A stretch of DNA of 64,000 nt from Brevibacillus sp. JNUCC-41 (lineage in GTDB: Bacteria; Bacillota; Bacilli; Bacillales; DSM-1321): assembly GCF_014844095.1 (NCBI RefSeq), contig NZ_CP062163.1, positions 3,071,501-3,135,500 of the forward strand, in the 5' to 3' direction. A program made the position numbers and the translations under genes. Shown here in pieces: positions 4,372 through 43,263 of the stretch; within the stretch, counting starts at the first letter, position 1; each line of letters begins with the position of its first letter. The notes beneath the pieces are model-generated. The model was not told the origin of the DNA. It saw nothing but the letters and a program-made list of their open reading frames with translations, and searched no databases.

Positions 4372-5061
4372 TTAATCGATGGTACAGATTTCTATTGGAC
4401 AGTTTTCACAGTCGATTTCCTGTTTCAAAAAATCAAAGTCAAGAATCGTAATGCGCCCCTTTTTAATGGAGATGACATTGTTTTTCCTTAATTGAGATAG
4501 CATTCGATTGACTACCTCGCGGGATGTGCCGCAAAAATTGGCGAGTTCTTGGTTTGTAAAAGGAAGATTGATAACTTTTCCGTCTTCTGCTTCAGTGCCA
4601 TAACTATTGGATAAACGGATAAGGGTGGAGTAAAAGGCACCTTTCTTGCCGTGCAGGAGCATATCGCGGAATTTAGCCTGATTTTTACGGTTCTGAGCCG
4701 ATAACCATGTCATCATCTCGACTGCAAGATGGCTATCTGAGGCGATTTTCTTTTCTAATGCTTCTTTGGAGATTACCGCAACAGATCCATCTTCCATCAT
4801 CTTTGCGTTCATCATATATTTAGGGTTTGGAGAAAATAAGACTGTTTCCCCAACCAAATCATTCTCCGAACTAATGCGTATAGTTAATTCCCGACCGTCA
4901 GGAACAACCTTACTCACTTCTACTGTACCTTTTAAAATGTAATACAAATCACTTGCTGGGGTGCTCTCGTGAAAAAGGTAGCTCCCTTTTTCCATATGTT
5001 TAACTTGCTGTTTATTATCTAAAATGGAATGCATCCGATTAGATAACGATAATTCATTCAT
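4372..5061 (-). CDS. fnr: Bacillus-type Fnr, Fe-S anaerobic regulator (Crp/Fnr family)
   Basis: A 229-residue Crp/Fnr regulator with an N-terminal cyclic-nucleotide-fold sensor and a C-terminal HTH (FTNQELANFCGTSREVVNRML). The last residues carry C218-x2-C221-x4-C226 (DCENCPIEIC). This C-terminal cysteine spacing is the arrangement of B. subtilis Fnr, whose [4Fe-4S] cluster is held by three C-terminal cysteines plus an aspartate. Asp133 (KFRDMLLHG) sits at nearly the right distance to be that fourth ligand. The start is ATG 5061 with GGAAAGGTGG upstream; a GTG at 5073 overlaps the SD. It is convergent with moaA and divergent from argC. The narGHJI and narK genes are not in the window. Confidence 0.88.
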   Translation of the reverse strand: MNELSLSNRMHSILDNKQQVKHMEKGSYLFHESTPASDLYYILKGTVEVSKVVPDGRELTIRISSENDLVGETVLFSPNPKYMMNAKMMEDGSVAVISKEALEKKIASDSHLAVEMMTWLSAQNRKNQAKFRDMLLHGKKGAFYSTLIRLSNSYGTEAEDGKVINLPFTNQELANFCGTSREVVNRMLSQLRKNNVISIKKGRITILDFDFLKQEIDCENCPIEICTID

Positions 5062-5215
5062 GCAAATGACCACCTTTCCAAATGCCGTTAAAACTCACTC
5101 ACTATTTGATTTAAACGGAAAAAACACTAACAGTCAACAACTTTGGATAATTCTAGGAATTTAGATGGATAAATTTTCATTTGAAATATTAGTTTAGAAT
5201 TTTATAAAAATACAT

Positions 5216-39571: not shown

Positions 39572-39631
39572 GATCCGGTTTAAAGATTTAGCCCAATGGC
39601 AAGTTTCTATAGAATGGGGAGGAATTTTTTT

Positions 39632-41449
39632 ATGGCACAGGAAACAAAAGCAAATACATTACCTTCAAGAAGTGAAATAGCTCCTGAAGATACTTGGAGA
39701 CTGGAAGATATCTTCGCAACCGAGGAAGATTGGGAAGCTGCTTTCAAAGCGGTAAAGGAAGACCTCAAGAAGGCGGAAGCACATAAAGGGACGTTGGGAG
39801 AAAGCGCAGAAAAATTATTTGCGGCCCTTCAACTCCAAGATGAGGTATTCGAGAAGCTAGGGAAAGTTTATTCTTATTCACATATGCGCAATGATCAAGA
39901 TACAACCAATCCTTTTTATCAAGGGATGGAGGATAGGGCAAAAGCTTTATACGCCCAGGCAGCTGCTGCGTTTTCATATATGGTTCCTGAACTATTGAGT
40001 ATTGATGAAAACAAAGTGGAAGGGTTTTTGGAAGAAAAAGAAGATTTGAAATTATACAAACATTCTTTAGAGGAAATCAATCTTCAGAGGCCCCATATCT
40101 TATCTGCTGAGCAGGAAGAATTATTGGCGCAAGCATCAGAAGTACTTGATGCATCGGGCAACACTTTCGGTATGCTAAACAATGCCGATTTGAAATTCCC
40201 GACCATTAAGGATGAAGAGGGAAATGAAGTGGAAATCACTCACGGAAGGTATATCAGTTTTCTTGAGAGTGAAGATCGCCGTGTACGTGAGGAGGCATTT
40301 AAAGGGGTATACAGCAAGTATGGAGAGTTCCGTAATACATTTGCTTCAACCCTGTCAGGTGAGGTGAAAAACCACAACTTCAATGCCACGGTTCGAAAAT
40401 ATGATTCAGCACGCCAAGCGGCGTTAAGTAATAATAACATTCCGGAGACCGTATACGATAATCTCGTTAAAACGGTCAATGACAACTTGCCATTACTGCA
40501 CCGCTATCTTGATTTACGTAAAAAAGTACTGCAATTAGACGAACTTCATATGTATGATCTATTCACCCCTCTTGTTAAAGAAGTGAAGATGGAAGTGACA
40601 TATGATGAGGCCAAAGATTATGTCCTTAAAGGTCTTGCTCCGCTTGGGGAGGACTATTTGAACGTTTTGAAAGAGGGATTTGAAAATCGTTGGGTCGATG
40701 TGCATGAAAACAAAGGGAAACGAAGCGGTGCCTATTCTTCTGGTACATATGGGACGAATCCTTATATTTTAATGAACTGGCAAAATAACGTCAATAACTT
40801 ATTCACGCTCGTTCATGAGTTTGGACATTCGGTCCATAGCTACTATACACGTAAATATCAGCCATATCCATATGGGAATTATTCCATATTTGTAGCGGAA
40901 GTTGCATCGACCTGTAATGAAAACCTGTTGAACGATTATTTACTGAATTCAATCGAAGATGAAAAGAAACGCATCTATTTATTGAATCATTACCTGGAAG
41001 GTTTCCGCGGCACACTGTTCCGGCAAACGATGTTTGCAGAGTTTGAACATACGATTCATTTAAAAGCTCAAAATGGGGAAGCGTTGACAGCGGATATGCT
41101 TACTAAGGAATATTATGAGCTGAACAAGAAATACTTTGGAGAGAACGTGACCATTGATGACGAAATCGGTTTGGAATGGGCGCGTATTCCACATTTCTAC
41201 TATAATTACTACGTTTATCAATATGCAACAGGAATCAGTGCAGCAACAGCATTGAGCAAGCAAATCCTTGAAGAAGGAGAGCCTGCCGTCAAAAGGTATC
41301 TGGAGTTCTTGAAGTCAGGAAGTTCCGATTATCCGATTGAAGTGCTCAAAAAGGCTGGCGTCGATATGACAAAAGCTGAACCTGTACAAGAAGCCATGAA
41401 TGTATTCGAAGAAAAATTAAATGAGTTGGAAGAGCTTTTGAATAAATAA
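39632..41449 (+). CDS. pepF: Oligoendopeptidase F
   Basis: A 605-residue cytoplasmic M3B metallopeptidase. The zinc motif is H395-E396-x2-H399 (LVHEFGHSVHSYY), with the downstream glutamate probably in VAEVASTCNE. It cleaves short peptides. The start is ATG 39632, SD GGGGAGGAA about 8 nt upstream; a longer frame from 39596 passes through the SD. In Bacillus and Staphylococcus pepF neighbours the RoxS/RsaE small RNA, which fits the next features. Confidence 0.95.
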   Translation: MAQETKANTLPSRSEIAPEDTWRLEDIFATEEDWEAAFKAVKEDLKKAEAHKGTLGESAEKLFAALQLQDEVFEKLGKVYSYSHMRNDQDTTNPFYQGMEDRAKALYAQAAAAFSYMVPELLSIDENKVEGFLEEKEDLKLYKHSLEEINLQRPHILSAEQEELLAQASEVLDASGNTFGMLNNADLKFPTIKDEEGNEVEITHGRYISFLESEDRRVREEAFKGVYSKYGEFRNTFASTLSGEVKNHNFNATVRKYDSARQAALSNNNIPETVYDNLVKTVNDNLPLLHRYLDLRKKVLQLDELHMYDLFTPLVKEVKMEVTYDEAKDYVLKGLAPLGEDYLNVLKEGFENRWVDVHENKGKRSGAYSSGTYGTNPYILMNWQNNVNNLFTLVHEFGHSVHSYYTRKYQPYPYGNYSIFVAEVASTCNENLLNDYLLNSIEDEKKRIYLLNHYLEGFRGTLFRQTMFAEFEHTIHLKAQNGEALTADMLTKEYYELNKKYFGENVTIDDEIGLEWARIPHFYYNYYVYQYATGISAATALSKQILEEGEPAVKRYLEFLKSGSSDYPIEVLKKAGVDMTKAEPVQEAMNVFEEKLNELEELLNK

Positions 41450-41503: not shown

Positions 41504-41668
41504 TCATAATCCTTTAAATCGATTTCTCTGATTTAAGCTATGAAGAATTATGAAGAAAACAAAAAATAGAATAGGGGAGGTAAAATACAGAGGAATGAGG
41601 TTCATGATACCGAGCAGCTGGACAAATAGCGACCCTATCAAGAGTATGAGTAGAATAAAGCCTTTCAA
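41504..41668 (-). CDS. Small two-span membrane protein (54 aa)
   Basis: The start is probably TTG 41668, with GGAGGTG 6 nt upstream on the minus strand; a GTG overlaps the SD. The product is very hydrophobic, with two membrane segments (FILLILLIGSLFVQLLGI; SPILFFVFFIILHSL) and a basic end RNRFKGL. The family is not recognised. It lies between pepF and the first small RNA and is transcribed away from it. Confidence 0.55.
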   Translation of the reverse strand: MKGFILLILLIGSLFVQLLGIMNLIPLYFTSPILFFVFFIILHSLNQRNRFKGL

Positions 41669-41762: not shown

Positions 41763-41780
41763 ATGTGAAGCTGCGCACAA
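41763..41780. promoter_or_regulatory. Rex/Fnr-like site upstream of small RNA 1
   Basis: ATGTGAAGCTGCGCACAA has the TGTG-N8-CACA core of Rex and Fnr sites, with one outer mismatch. It ends 5 nt before the -35 of the first RNA promoter. Confidence 0.55.
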
Positions 41781-41785
41781 AGTTC

Positions 41786-41815
41786 TTGCTTTTAAGGTGC
41801 ATAATCTGCTATAGT
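41786..41815 (+). promoter_or_regulatory. Promoter of small RNA 1
   Basis: TTGCTT (41786-41791), an 18-nt spacer and TATAGT (41810-41815). Predicted start near 41822. Confidence 0.65.
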
Positions 41816-41821
41816 ACAGAT

Positions 41822-41947
41822 ATAGAAGTTATCACATCCCAAACATATACCCCTTTGTTTGTTCGTCGTGAAATTTCTCCTATCCCCTTATTCGCATAAA
41901 TAGATGAAAAACCCCAGCAAATTTCGTGATTTGCCGGGGTTTTTCAT
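41822..41947 (+). ncRNA. RoxS/RsaE-like small regulatory RNA, copy 1
   Basis: About 125 nt from a predicted start to a strong terminator (stem with ACCCC and GGGGT, loop, T5, at 41907-41945). It shows the hallmark C-rich single-stranded motifs, ACCCCTTTGTTTG and TCTCCTATCCCCTTATT. These match what I know of RsaE in Staphylococcus and RoxS in B. subtilis, which pair with Shine-Dalgarno regions of central metabolism mRNAs under respiratory or NO stress. The location between pepF and yjbH also fits. No open frame competes. Confidence 0.85.
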
Positions 41948-42035
41948 TTGCAGAAAAGTAAAAGTACAAAATGACGCAGGTTGTAACATAATTTGTACGA
42001 AAGATTAGGAAATAAAAACAAATGATTTAATATTT

Positions 42036-42053
42036 TTGTGATTTGTTTCACAA
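42036..42053. promoter_or_regulatory. Perfect Rex/Fnr-type palindrome
   Basis: TTGTGATTTGTTTCACAA has exact TTGTGA-N6-TCACAA arms, fitting the NADH-sensing Rex repressor as well as Bacillus Fnr (TGTGA-N6-TCACA). It lies about 200 nt upstream of small RNA 2 and 90 nt after small RNA 1. Confidence 0.7.
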
Positions 42054-42177
42054 TTAAATTCATTCCCTTGCTTATCAGATATAAAAAACACTTATGGCTT
42101 TAAACTTAAATGGGCTCTTATTTAGCTATATATAAAAGAAACAATAATTAAAAAATGAAAAATATATTGTGAACAAA

Positions 42178-42195
42178 TTGTGAAATGTTACACAA
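42178..42195. promoter_or_regulatory. Rex/Fnr-like site before small RNA 2 promoter
   Basis: TTGTGAAATGTTACACAA has the core with one mismatch in the right arm. It ends 4 nt before the -35 (TTGAAA). Confidence 0.65.
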
Positions 42196-42199
42196 ACAG

Positions 42200-42252
42200 T
42201 TGAAACATAACTGAGTTATCTGTTATATTATTTATTGTGAAGCGAATCACAA
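42200..42252 (+). promoter_or_regulatory. Promoter of small RNA 2 with Rex/Fnr site at the start
   Basis: TTGAAA (42200-42205), an 18-nt spacer and TATATT (42224-42229). A perfect TTGTGA-N6-TCACAA palindrome lies at 42235-42252, over the predicted start. Binding there should repress. Confidence 0.7.
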
Positions 42253-42352
42253 ACAAACTTATACCCCTTTGTTTGATCGTGAAAAATTTCTCCCATCCCC
42301 TTATTTTCTTATAAAAAAAACCATGCAATCTTTTGATTTGCGTGGTTTTAAA
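42236..42352 (+). ncRNA. RoxS/RsaE-like small regulatory RNA, copy 2
   Basis: About 117 nt. It contains ACCCCTTTGTTTGATCGTG and TTTCTCCCATCCCCTTATT, closer to the classical RsaE text than copy 1, and ends in a hairpin AAACCATGCAA/TTGCGTGGTTT (42318-42348) with a short T tract. The two copies share the order of C-rich motifs but have different terminator stems, so they are diverged paralogs, not a recent duplication. Confidence 0.87.
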
Positions 42353-42382
42353 CAAAAAAGCAGTCAAATTCATGACTGCTTC
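42353..42382 (-). terminator. Terminator of the yjbH operon
   Basis: On the minus strand GCAGTCA and TGACTGC pair around a 6-nt loop that spans the yjbH stop, followed by six T. It faces the end of small RNA 2. Confidence 0.8.
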
Positions 42383-43263
42383 TTTGTATATCTCCAAAAC
42401 GTTCCGTATTTAGCAGGAATCTTTTCTGCCAACTGTTTTAAAACAAGCTTTTTCATTTCCAACTCGACGTTACTCTTATTCATATTATAAACAGTTTCAA
42501 TTTCCTTTGTGGCCACTAGATTGAAACAGCTTAAAAATTCTTCGAGAGAGGGGGGGTTTGCAGGGGCTGGCAGACCATTGAGCATATCTTCTAAAATTTG
42601 AACATATACCTCGTAAGAATAGACACCTGAAACTTTTATTCCCTCTTCTTCAATATTTTGATTGAAAAAGACAAGGGAAGGTATTTCCGTCACTTCCATT
42701 TCGTTAGTGATTTTCATGTCACATTGAAAGCCTTTGGCTGCACTGGAAGAATTGATGTCATAAAGGAATTCCTCTACATCCAGACCAACCATTTTGGCAC
42801 ATTCGGTCAAGACTTCGATATTGGATATATCCTTTTTCCCTATGAATACATATTCTTGAAGCTGCCTTAAAAAGCGAATGGCTAATTTACGCCCCTGCAA
42901 TTCCGCTGCTTTTATTGCGATGGAAGCTGTATATGGAGAAGAGATTGGGTTTTCAGACCAAAGGCTCCCGTCGCAGGACATTCCCGAGCGGCTGGCTGTC
43001 TTTTCCCAAACCTGAGCAATGTTTTCATAATTTTTATTTTTCCCCATATTAAGAGAATCGATTTTACCGCTTAAAACATGGCGTAAGCTGAACAATTGGC
43101 CATATTCTATCTGTAATTTCCTAATAATTGGTTCTAAGCCCCAGCATTCGGGACAAAGCGGATCAACAAAAACATAAATTTCAATTGGCTTTTTTCCTAT
43201 ATCATAGCAATGCTGCGTCTTGATCCAATCGGAAATATTGAAAACTGGTTTTTGTGCGCTCAA
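42370..43263 (-). CDS. yjbH: YjbH/SpxH, adaptor for Spx degradation by ClpXP
   Basis: A 297-residue DsbA-like thioredoxin-fold protein with C37-x2-C40 (DPLCPECWG) near the N-terminus. It binds Spx and speeds its breakdown by ClpXP; stress relieves this. The start is TTG 43263, overlapping the yjbI stop by 4 bp, with AAAGGAG upstream. It lies downstream of yjbI in a two-gene operon. In this window its target spx is 7 kb away, and the RoxS-like RNAs sit next to it. Confidence 0.93.
   Translation of the reverse strand: MSAQKPVFNISDWIKTQHCYDIGKKPIEIYVFVDPLCPECWGLEPIIRKLQIEYGQLFSLRHVLSGKIDSLNMGKNKNYENIAQVWEKTASRSGMSCDGSLWSENPISSPYTASIAIKAAELQGRKLAIRFLRQLQEYVFIGKKDISNIEVLTECAKMVGLDVEEFLYDINSSSAAKGFQCDMKITNEMEVTEIPSLVFFNQNIEEEGIKVSGVYSYEVYVQILEDMLNGLPAPANPPSLEEFLSCFNLVATKEIETVYNMNKSNVELEMKKLVLKQLAEKIPAKYGTFWRYTKKQS

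Follow-up and report, generated by a model that had tools for sequence, protein, structure and literature searches.

The small RNAs RoxS of Bacillus subtilis and RsaE of Staphylococcus (RF01820) are the closest described relatives of the locus analyzed here. In B. subtilis, ResD has been shown to activate roxS under nitric oxide (NO) and low oxygen, and Durand et al. described a conserved 8-base ResD site around position -65 (PMC4409812). Rex binds an operator located just downstream of the start and represses roxS until NADH rises (PMC5419742). Through its C-rich regions, CRR3 foremost, the RNA pairs with transcripts of TCA and NAD(H)-linked genes at their ribosome-binding sites (PMC4409812, PMC5419742, PMC8464778, PMC10433868). 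RoxS adjusts metabolism to redox state. The inputs of ResD (NO/oxygen) and Rex (NADH) meet at one promoter, and their contributions are hard to separate. Here, we describe a tandem pair of roxS genes and propose, with good confidence, that the two RNAs are functional siblings derived from one tandem duplication, whose inputs were then split, copy 2 being Rex-gated and copy 1 not.

The pair lies in a 64,000-nucleotide stretch of the genome of Brevibacillus sp. JNUCC-41 (the window; positions refer to it unless a genome coordinate is given). The genome is a single contig of 5.49 Mb in which a rex gene was found, and its host appears to belong to Peribacillus in the wide sense; a genome from another genus of this family (G040) coincides on the tree with Peribacillus deserti. 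Both neighbors of the pair are conserved: on the left, pepF, encoding oligopeptidase F (39596..41449, forward strand; Pfam Peptidase_M3 and Peptidase_M3_N), and on the right, a yjbH/spxH-like gene for a thioredoxin-fold protein (42370..43263, reverse strand; Pfam Thioredoxin_5), which is convergent with copy 2. This gap is the normal place of roxS, and the same location is found in many named Bacillaceae. A gene for a small hydrophobic protein of about 54 amino acids with no Pfam match (41504-41668, reverse strand) is also present between pepF and roxS.

Judged from their sequences, both units are RsaE/RoxS small RNAs. Copy 1 (41822..41946, forward strand) and copy 2 (42237..42350, forward strand), spaced about 415 bases apart in the pepF-yjbH interval, lie where the initial annotation had placed two RNA-like units, and its description of them was accurate. 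The covariance search with the Rfam RsaE model (RF01820) matched both over their full length, so that the outcome at odds with this description, a match to neither, did not occur. Copy 2, at 88.3 bits, exceeded the gathering score of 79; copy 1, at 55.8 bits (E 2.5e-7), fell short of it and scored 103 bits with our own model. The Rex operator is a regulatory element that known members have in common but that lies outside the definition of the RNA family; copy 1 is therefore classed as a paralogue of RoxS whose control is altered. A three-tier 5' hairpin with ACCCC in its loop is present in both copies, and the C-rich motifs ACCCCTTTGTTTG, in the hairpin loop, and TCTCC(T/C)ATCCCCTT, in a single-stranded linker, are 94-100% identical over the 21 species of the main clade defined below. 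Each unit also has the intrinsic terminator and the -35/-10 pair ascribed to it: the terminators fold, with folding z-scores of -7.4 and -4.9, and the promoters are alike, both with an extended TG-N -10 element. The promoter of copy 1 (41786..41815, forward strand) combines a -35 TTGCTT, an 18-base spacer and a -10 TG-C-TATAGT in a region 90% identical over the 21 species; that of copy 2 (42200..42229, forward strand) combines TTGAAA, 18 bases and TG-T-TATATT and is 84% identical.

Copy 1 falls under the Rfam gathering cut-off in every main-clade tandem genome, and a third copy elsewhere in the host is truly decaying, two points which could suggest that one tandem copy is a decaying pseudogene as well. 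We regard this as highly improbable and rejected it for copy 1 on the basis of RNA conservation and of the hairpin. Over 21 species, the body of copy 1 is as conserved as that of copy 2 (95.5% versus 95.1% identity, with 48% in the spacer), and the 13-nt CRR1 motif is 100% identical within each copy. The 5' hairpin, predicted by folding each RNA, is intact in copy 1 of all 21 species and in 20 of the 21 copy 2 sequences; per-RNA folding was used to judge its retention because the RNAalifold consensus of the mixed alignment retained the terminator stem only. The low score of copy 1 goes together with a changed 5' stem and a longer internal loop.

Four TTGTGA-N6-TCACAA-like sites, two of them perfect, had been noted around the pair and are indeed present, with two mismatches at 41763, none at 42036, one at 42178 and none at 42235. 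Over the whole window, six sites with at most two mismatches were counted against 4.85 expected, which is no more than chance; four of these six are clustered within 0.5 kb at the roxS pair. A chance origin of this cluster was rejected since only three perfect sites exist in the entire 5.49-Mb genome, two of which lie here, and both are conserved. The third perfect site (G000:C1:2569918-2569935, L139) immediately precedes the gene of an NAD-dependent epimerase-like protein. A Rex-like site with one mismatch (G000:C1:146771-146788, L142) lies directly upstream of a gene reading as nadB (L-aspartate oxidase, NAD synthesis), so that nadB is plausibly controlled by Rex as well.

The four sites are not the equivalent Rex/Fnr operators that they had been taken for. 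Those at 41763 and 42178 match, in position and sequence, the ResD site of B. subtilis roxS and are assigned as putative ResD-type sites by this comparison (PMC4409812). The putative activator site of copy 1, ATGTGAAGCTGCGCACAA (41763..41780, forward strand), is found at -59/-60 from the RNA start, where TGTGAA and the right-hand GCACAA are retained in the 21 main-clade species. That of copy 2 (42167..42195, forward strand) consists of TTGTGAA repeated directly at 42167 and 42178, at a distance of 11 bases, the segment 42165-42185 being 94% identical across 21 species. The two sites thus occupy equivalent positions, each some 59 bases ahead of its RNA, and single-copy relatives also have a ResD-type site at this place, with TGTGAA kept. 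A reading of 41763 and 42178 as weak Rex sites is disfavored since the T of TCACAA (position 13) is not conserved and their location fits the ResD site.

The two copies differ at the RNA start. Copy 2 bears a perfect putative Rex operator over its start, TTGTGAAGCGAATCACAA (42235..42252, forward strand), as had been stated in the initial annotation, and 11-12 of the 12 positions in its arms are kept in each of the 21 species. When the operator was sought at the same place in copy 1, it was found broken in all 21 main-clade species: the sequence reads TATAGA-N5-TCACAT, the left arm being gone (with ATAAGA and CATAGA as variants within the clade) and the spacer being one base shorter. The claim that copy 1 has only an imperfect upstream site is thus right in that no intact start site exists, and incomplete in that the wreck of one is still carried in these 21 species. 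Beyond the lost arm, the bases of copy 1 still form the lower stem of the RNA, and the hairpin is even lengthened. As this hairpin has been kept while the operator was destroyed, what was lost is a DNA signal and not an RNA feature. The broken site retains one arm (TCACA), and Rex may therefore still contact it weakly. The first description, of two RoxS/RsaE paralogues that differ in operator layout, is thus correct for this genome.

The duplication is not a trait of this strain, as the initial annotation had it, but is common to most of the genus: a tandem roxS pair was found in 28 of the 36 species surveyed and a single copy in the other eight. In an even, order-wide sample of 318 genomes from 120 genera, 201 had a match; outside the host genus, 190 of the 192 genomes with a match are single-copy, and the two with two matches belong to one other genus, the strict filters of this survey being such that very weak copies may be missed. 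The suggested comparison of the pepF-yjbH gap across Bacillaceae placed roxS there in many named genomes, with two copies only in the Peribacillus relative and in Oceanobacillus caeni among the matches listed, which comprised at most 80 loci. The Oceanobacillus-type pairs, which flank a small open reading frame, are a separate duplication event; a frame like that at 41504-41668 can be read in O. caeni (L087) and in genus g86 (L154), where it separates the two roxS copies. In both, the roxS start palindrome has changed in both arms towards TTGTAA-N6-TTACAA (L087 4376-5035; L154 1500-2110), a form which is intact in g86 and closely approached by the O. caeni copies, as if operator and repressor had changed together.

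In a tree of the neighboring PepF and YjbH parts, 24 tandem species group together with a support of 99. This clade A comprises the 21 species of the tight main clade and G001, G002 and G011; the other pairs (G009, G010 and G022; G032) fall outside it. In the tree of RNA copies, the copy 1 sequences of the main clade cluster with that of the early-branching G001 (support 96), whereas third copies are nested within the copy 2 group, the placement of the G011 and G032 copies being poorly supported. The simplest account of these trees would be an old tandem duplication in clade A, one or more further duplications in the line of G009, G010 and G022, and a third copy transposed later. The start site of copy 1 is already weak in G001 and G002 (9 of 12). 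In G011, the most divergent species of clade A, it is still a good Rex-like site (11 of 12); hence, the Rex site was lost after the copies had arisen, and not in every species of clade A.

A simpler view of the pair is that it only provides dosage: the copies would be redundant, together giving more RoxS, and loss of the Rex operator from copy 1 would be a neutral accident. The seeds of the two RNAs are nearly identical, and the pairs of G009, G010 and G022, which stem from the second duplication, have kept the Rex sites in both copies, so that duplication alone does not require an input split and pairs can be retained without one. We nevertheless consider dosage alone unlikely, since the identical breakage is fixed in 21 of 21 species amid a promoter about 90% identical, with the overlapping RNA hairpin kept, and the copy 2 operator is maintained in all 21. 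A division of inputs between two functional siblings remains our preferred reading.

The initial annotation counted two redox RNAs, but a third RoxS-like unit, beyond its field of view, exists in the same genome (L003; G000:C1:3037099-3037207, reverse strand), 34 kb left of the window and 77 kb from the pair. Its C-rich motifs are eroded, it has no Rex operator and its 5' hairpin is lost, the terminator being intact. Several relatives likewise carry the third copy at a distance of about 77 kb; it is intact only in G003, and each of the seven further genomes in which it was detected shows either erosion of the motifs and hairpin or loss of part of the unit. In our reading, the third copy descends from copy 2 and is decaying. 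It is adjoined (L003 1320-1500) by a dispersed GC-rich repeat (CTCCTGCGGGAAAAGCGTGTCCCAGGGA...), which recurs in part elsewhere in the genome (L004, L194 and L195); this repeat may have helped to move the third copy. Host-genome matches weaker than the third copy (E > 0.05) were treated as chance, and one of them, L004, contained no RoxS motifs on inspection.

The fourth site is an isolated perfect palindrome between the copies, TTGTGATTTGTTTCACAA (42036..42053, forward strand), and appears to be a conserved operator for Rex or Fnr. In the alignment of 21 species, its arms are 92% identical, its six-base core 60% and the surrounding spacer 48%; 11-12 of the 12 arm positions are kept in 20 of the 21 species, G013 being the only one without it. 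Depending on the species, it lies 166 to 212 bases from copy 2, and strict helical phasing is therefore not maintained. TGTGA-N6-TCACA is also the Fnr consensus. In addition, the window encodes an Fnr-type regulator (about 4375-5094, reverse strand) with a Crp/Fnr helix-turn-helix and a C-terminal CX2CX4C cluster (CENCPIEIC). The palindrome could accordingly be an Fnr site, through which oxygen loss would act on the pair or on some other transcript, and not a second Rex operator at a distance. We rate this as a serious possibility that falls short of being probable: on the opposite strand the site reads TTGTGAA-N4-ATCACAA and shares its asymmetry with the Rex operator of copy 2 (in G021, it is identical to the most frequent version of that operator), and a search on either side found no conserved promoter at the expected distance. 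This assignment concerns 42036 alone and is compatible with a split of inputs between the two copies.

From what is directly observed at this locus, namely homology, synteny, copy numbers, ancestry and loss of an operator against conservation of the RNA, we infer the following scheme for transcription, Rex and ResD binding, targets and regulation. After tandem duplication in the ancestor of the 24 sampled Peribacillus species, the inputs would have been divided between the copies. Because promoter and ResD-type site are kept in both, both should be activated by ResDE, which would switch them on under low oxygen or nitric oxide as known in B. subtilis. Copy 2 would be repressed by Rex through its start operator until NADH rises, its expression needing both ResD and relief from Rex. 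Copy 1, having lost this operator through a changed left arm and a shorter spacer, should be free of Rex and would follow ResD alone. Both RNAs would use the C-rich loop and the CRR2-3 stretch to pair with G-rich ribosome-binding sites, thereby damping TCA-cycle and NAD(H)-linked enzymes. The two copies thus probably answer different signals, and their responses to NADH or oxygen may differ, as the initial annotation suggested. A further step is tentative and, in our view, rather doubtful: a Rex-gated and a Rex-blind RoxS with nearly the same targets would let NADH and NO/oxygen raise RoxS independently, 42036 being a distal operator through which Rex would repress copy 2, and copy 2 only, more strongly. 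In many species, one copy has apparently lost an input while otherwise matching its sibling. The pair constitutes a natural experiment in which the promoters are directly comparable.

In sequence, 5' hairpin, C-rich motifs and pepF-yjbH location, the pair resembles B. subtilis RoxS and Staphylococcus RsaE, as it does in having a ResD-type site upstream and, in copy 2, a Rex operator over the start. Unlike these systems, the host has two tandem copies and a remnant, a copy 1 without the Rex operator and an extra conserved palindrome between the copies. The RNAs also differ just after CRR3, where copy 2 reads CCCCTTATTT and B. subtilis RoxS CCCCTTTGTT; many copy 1 sequences read CCCCTTATTCG, a change similar to that of copy 2. 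Owing to these changes, the target sets may differ slightly from that of B. subtilis and between the copies. A search of both strands of the genome for exact complements of CRR2-3 yielded 97 places versus 84 for the reversed control, which is no useful enrichment. Near-perfect complements were seen at the ribosome-binding sites of a hydantoinase/allantoinase-like gene (L171, G000:C1:2862364) and of a KDPG-aldolase-like gene (L173, 4743985); both are candidate RoxS targets, the genome-wide count being not clearly above control.

No report of a duplicated RoxS/RsaE was found in the literature searched, a search whose reach mostly excluded subscription journals, and RoxS/RsaE is absent from a review of sibling small RNAs (PMC4211561). 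We regard the finding itself as real and as better than ordinary: within one genus, a small RNA of a known family has been duplicated, and one copy has lost an operator that can be identified, a state maintained over many species. Tandem paralogous regulatory RNAs which share their pairing regions are known from PrrF1/PrrF2, OmrA/OmrB and AbcR1/AbcR2, and the promoters of OmrA and OmrB differ, as does their expression (PMC4211561). The present pair is like these siblings in its arrangement and unlike them in its RNA family and its regulators. What it adds to them is that one sibling has lost a single, identified operator, a loss which can be followed over 21 species.
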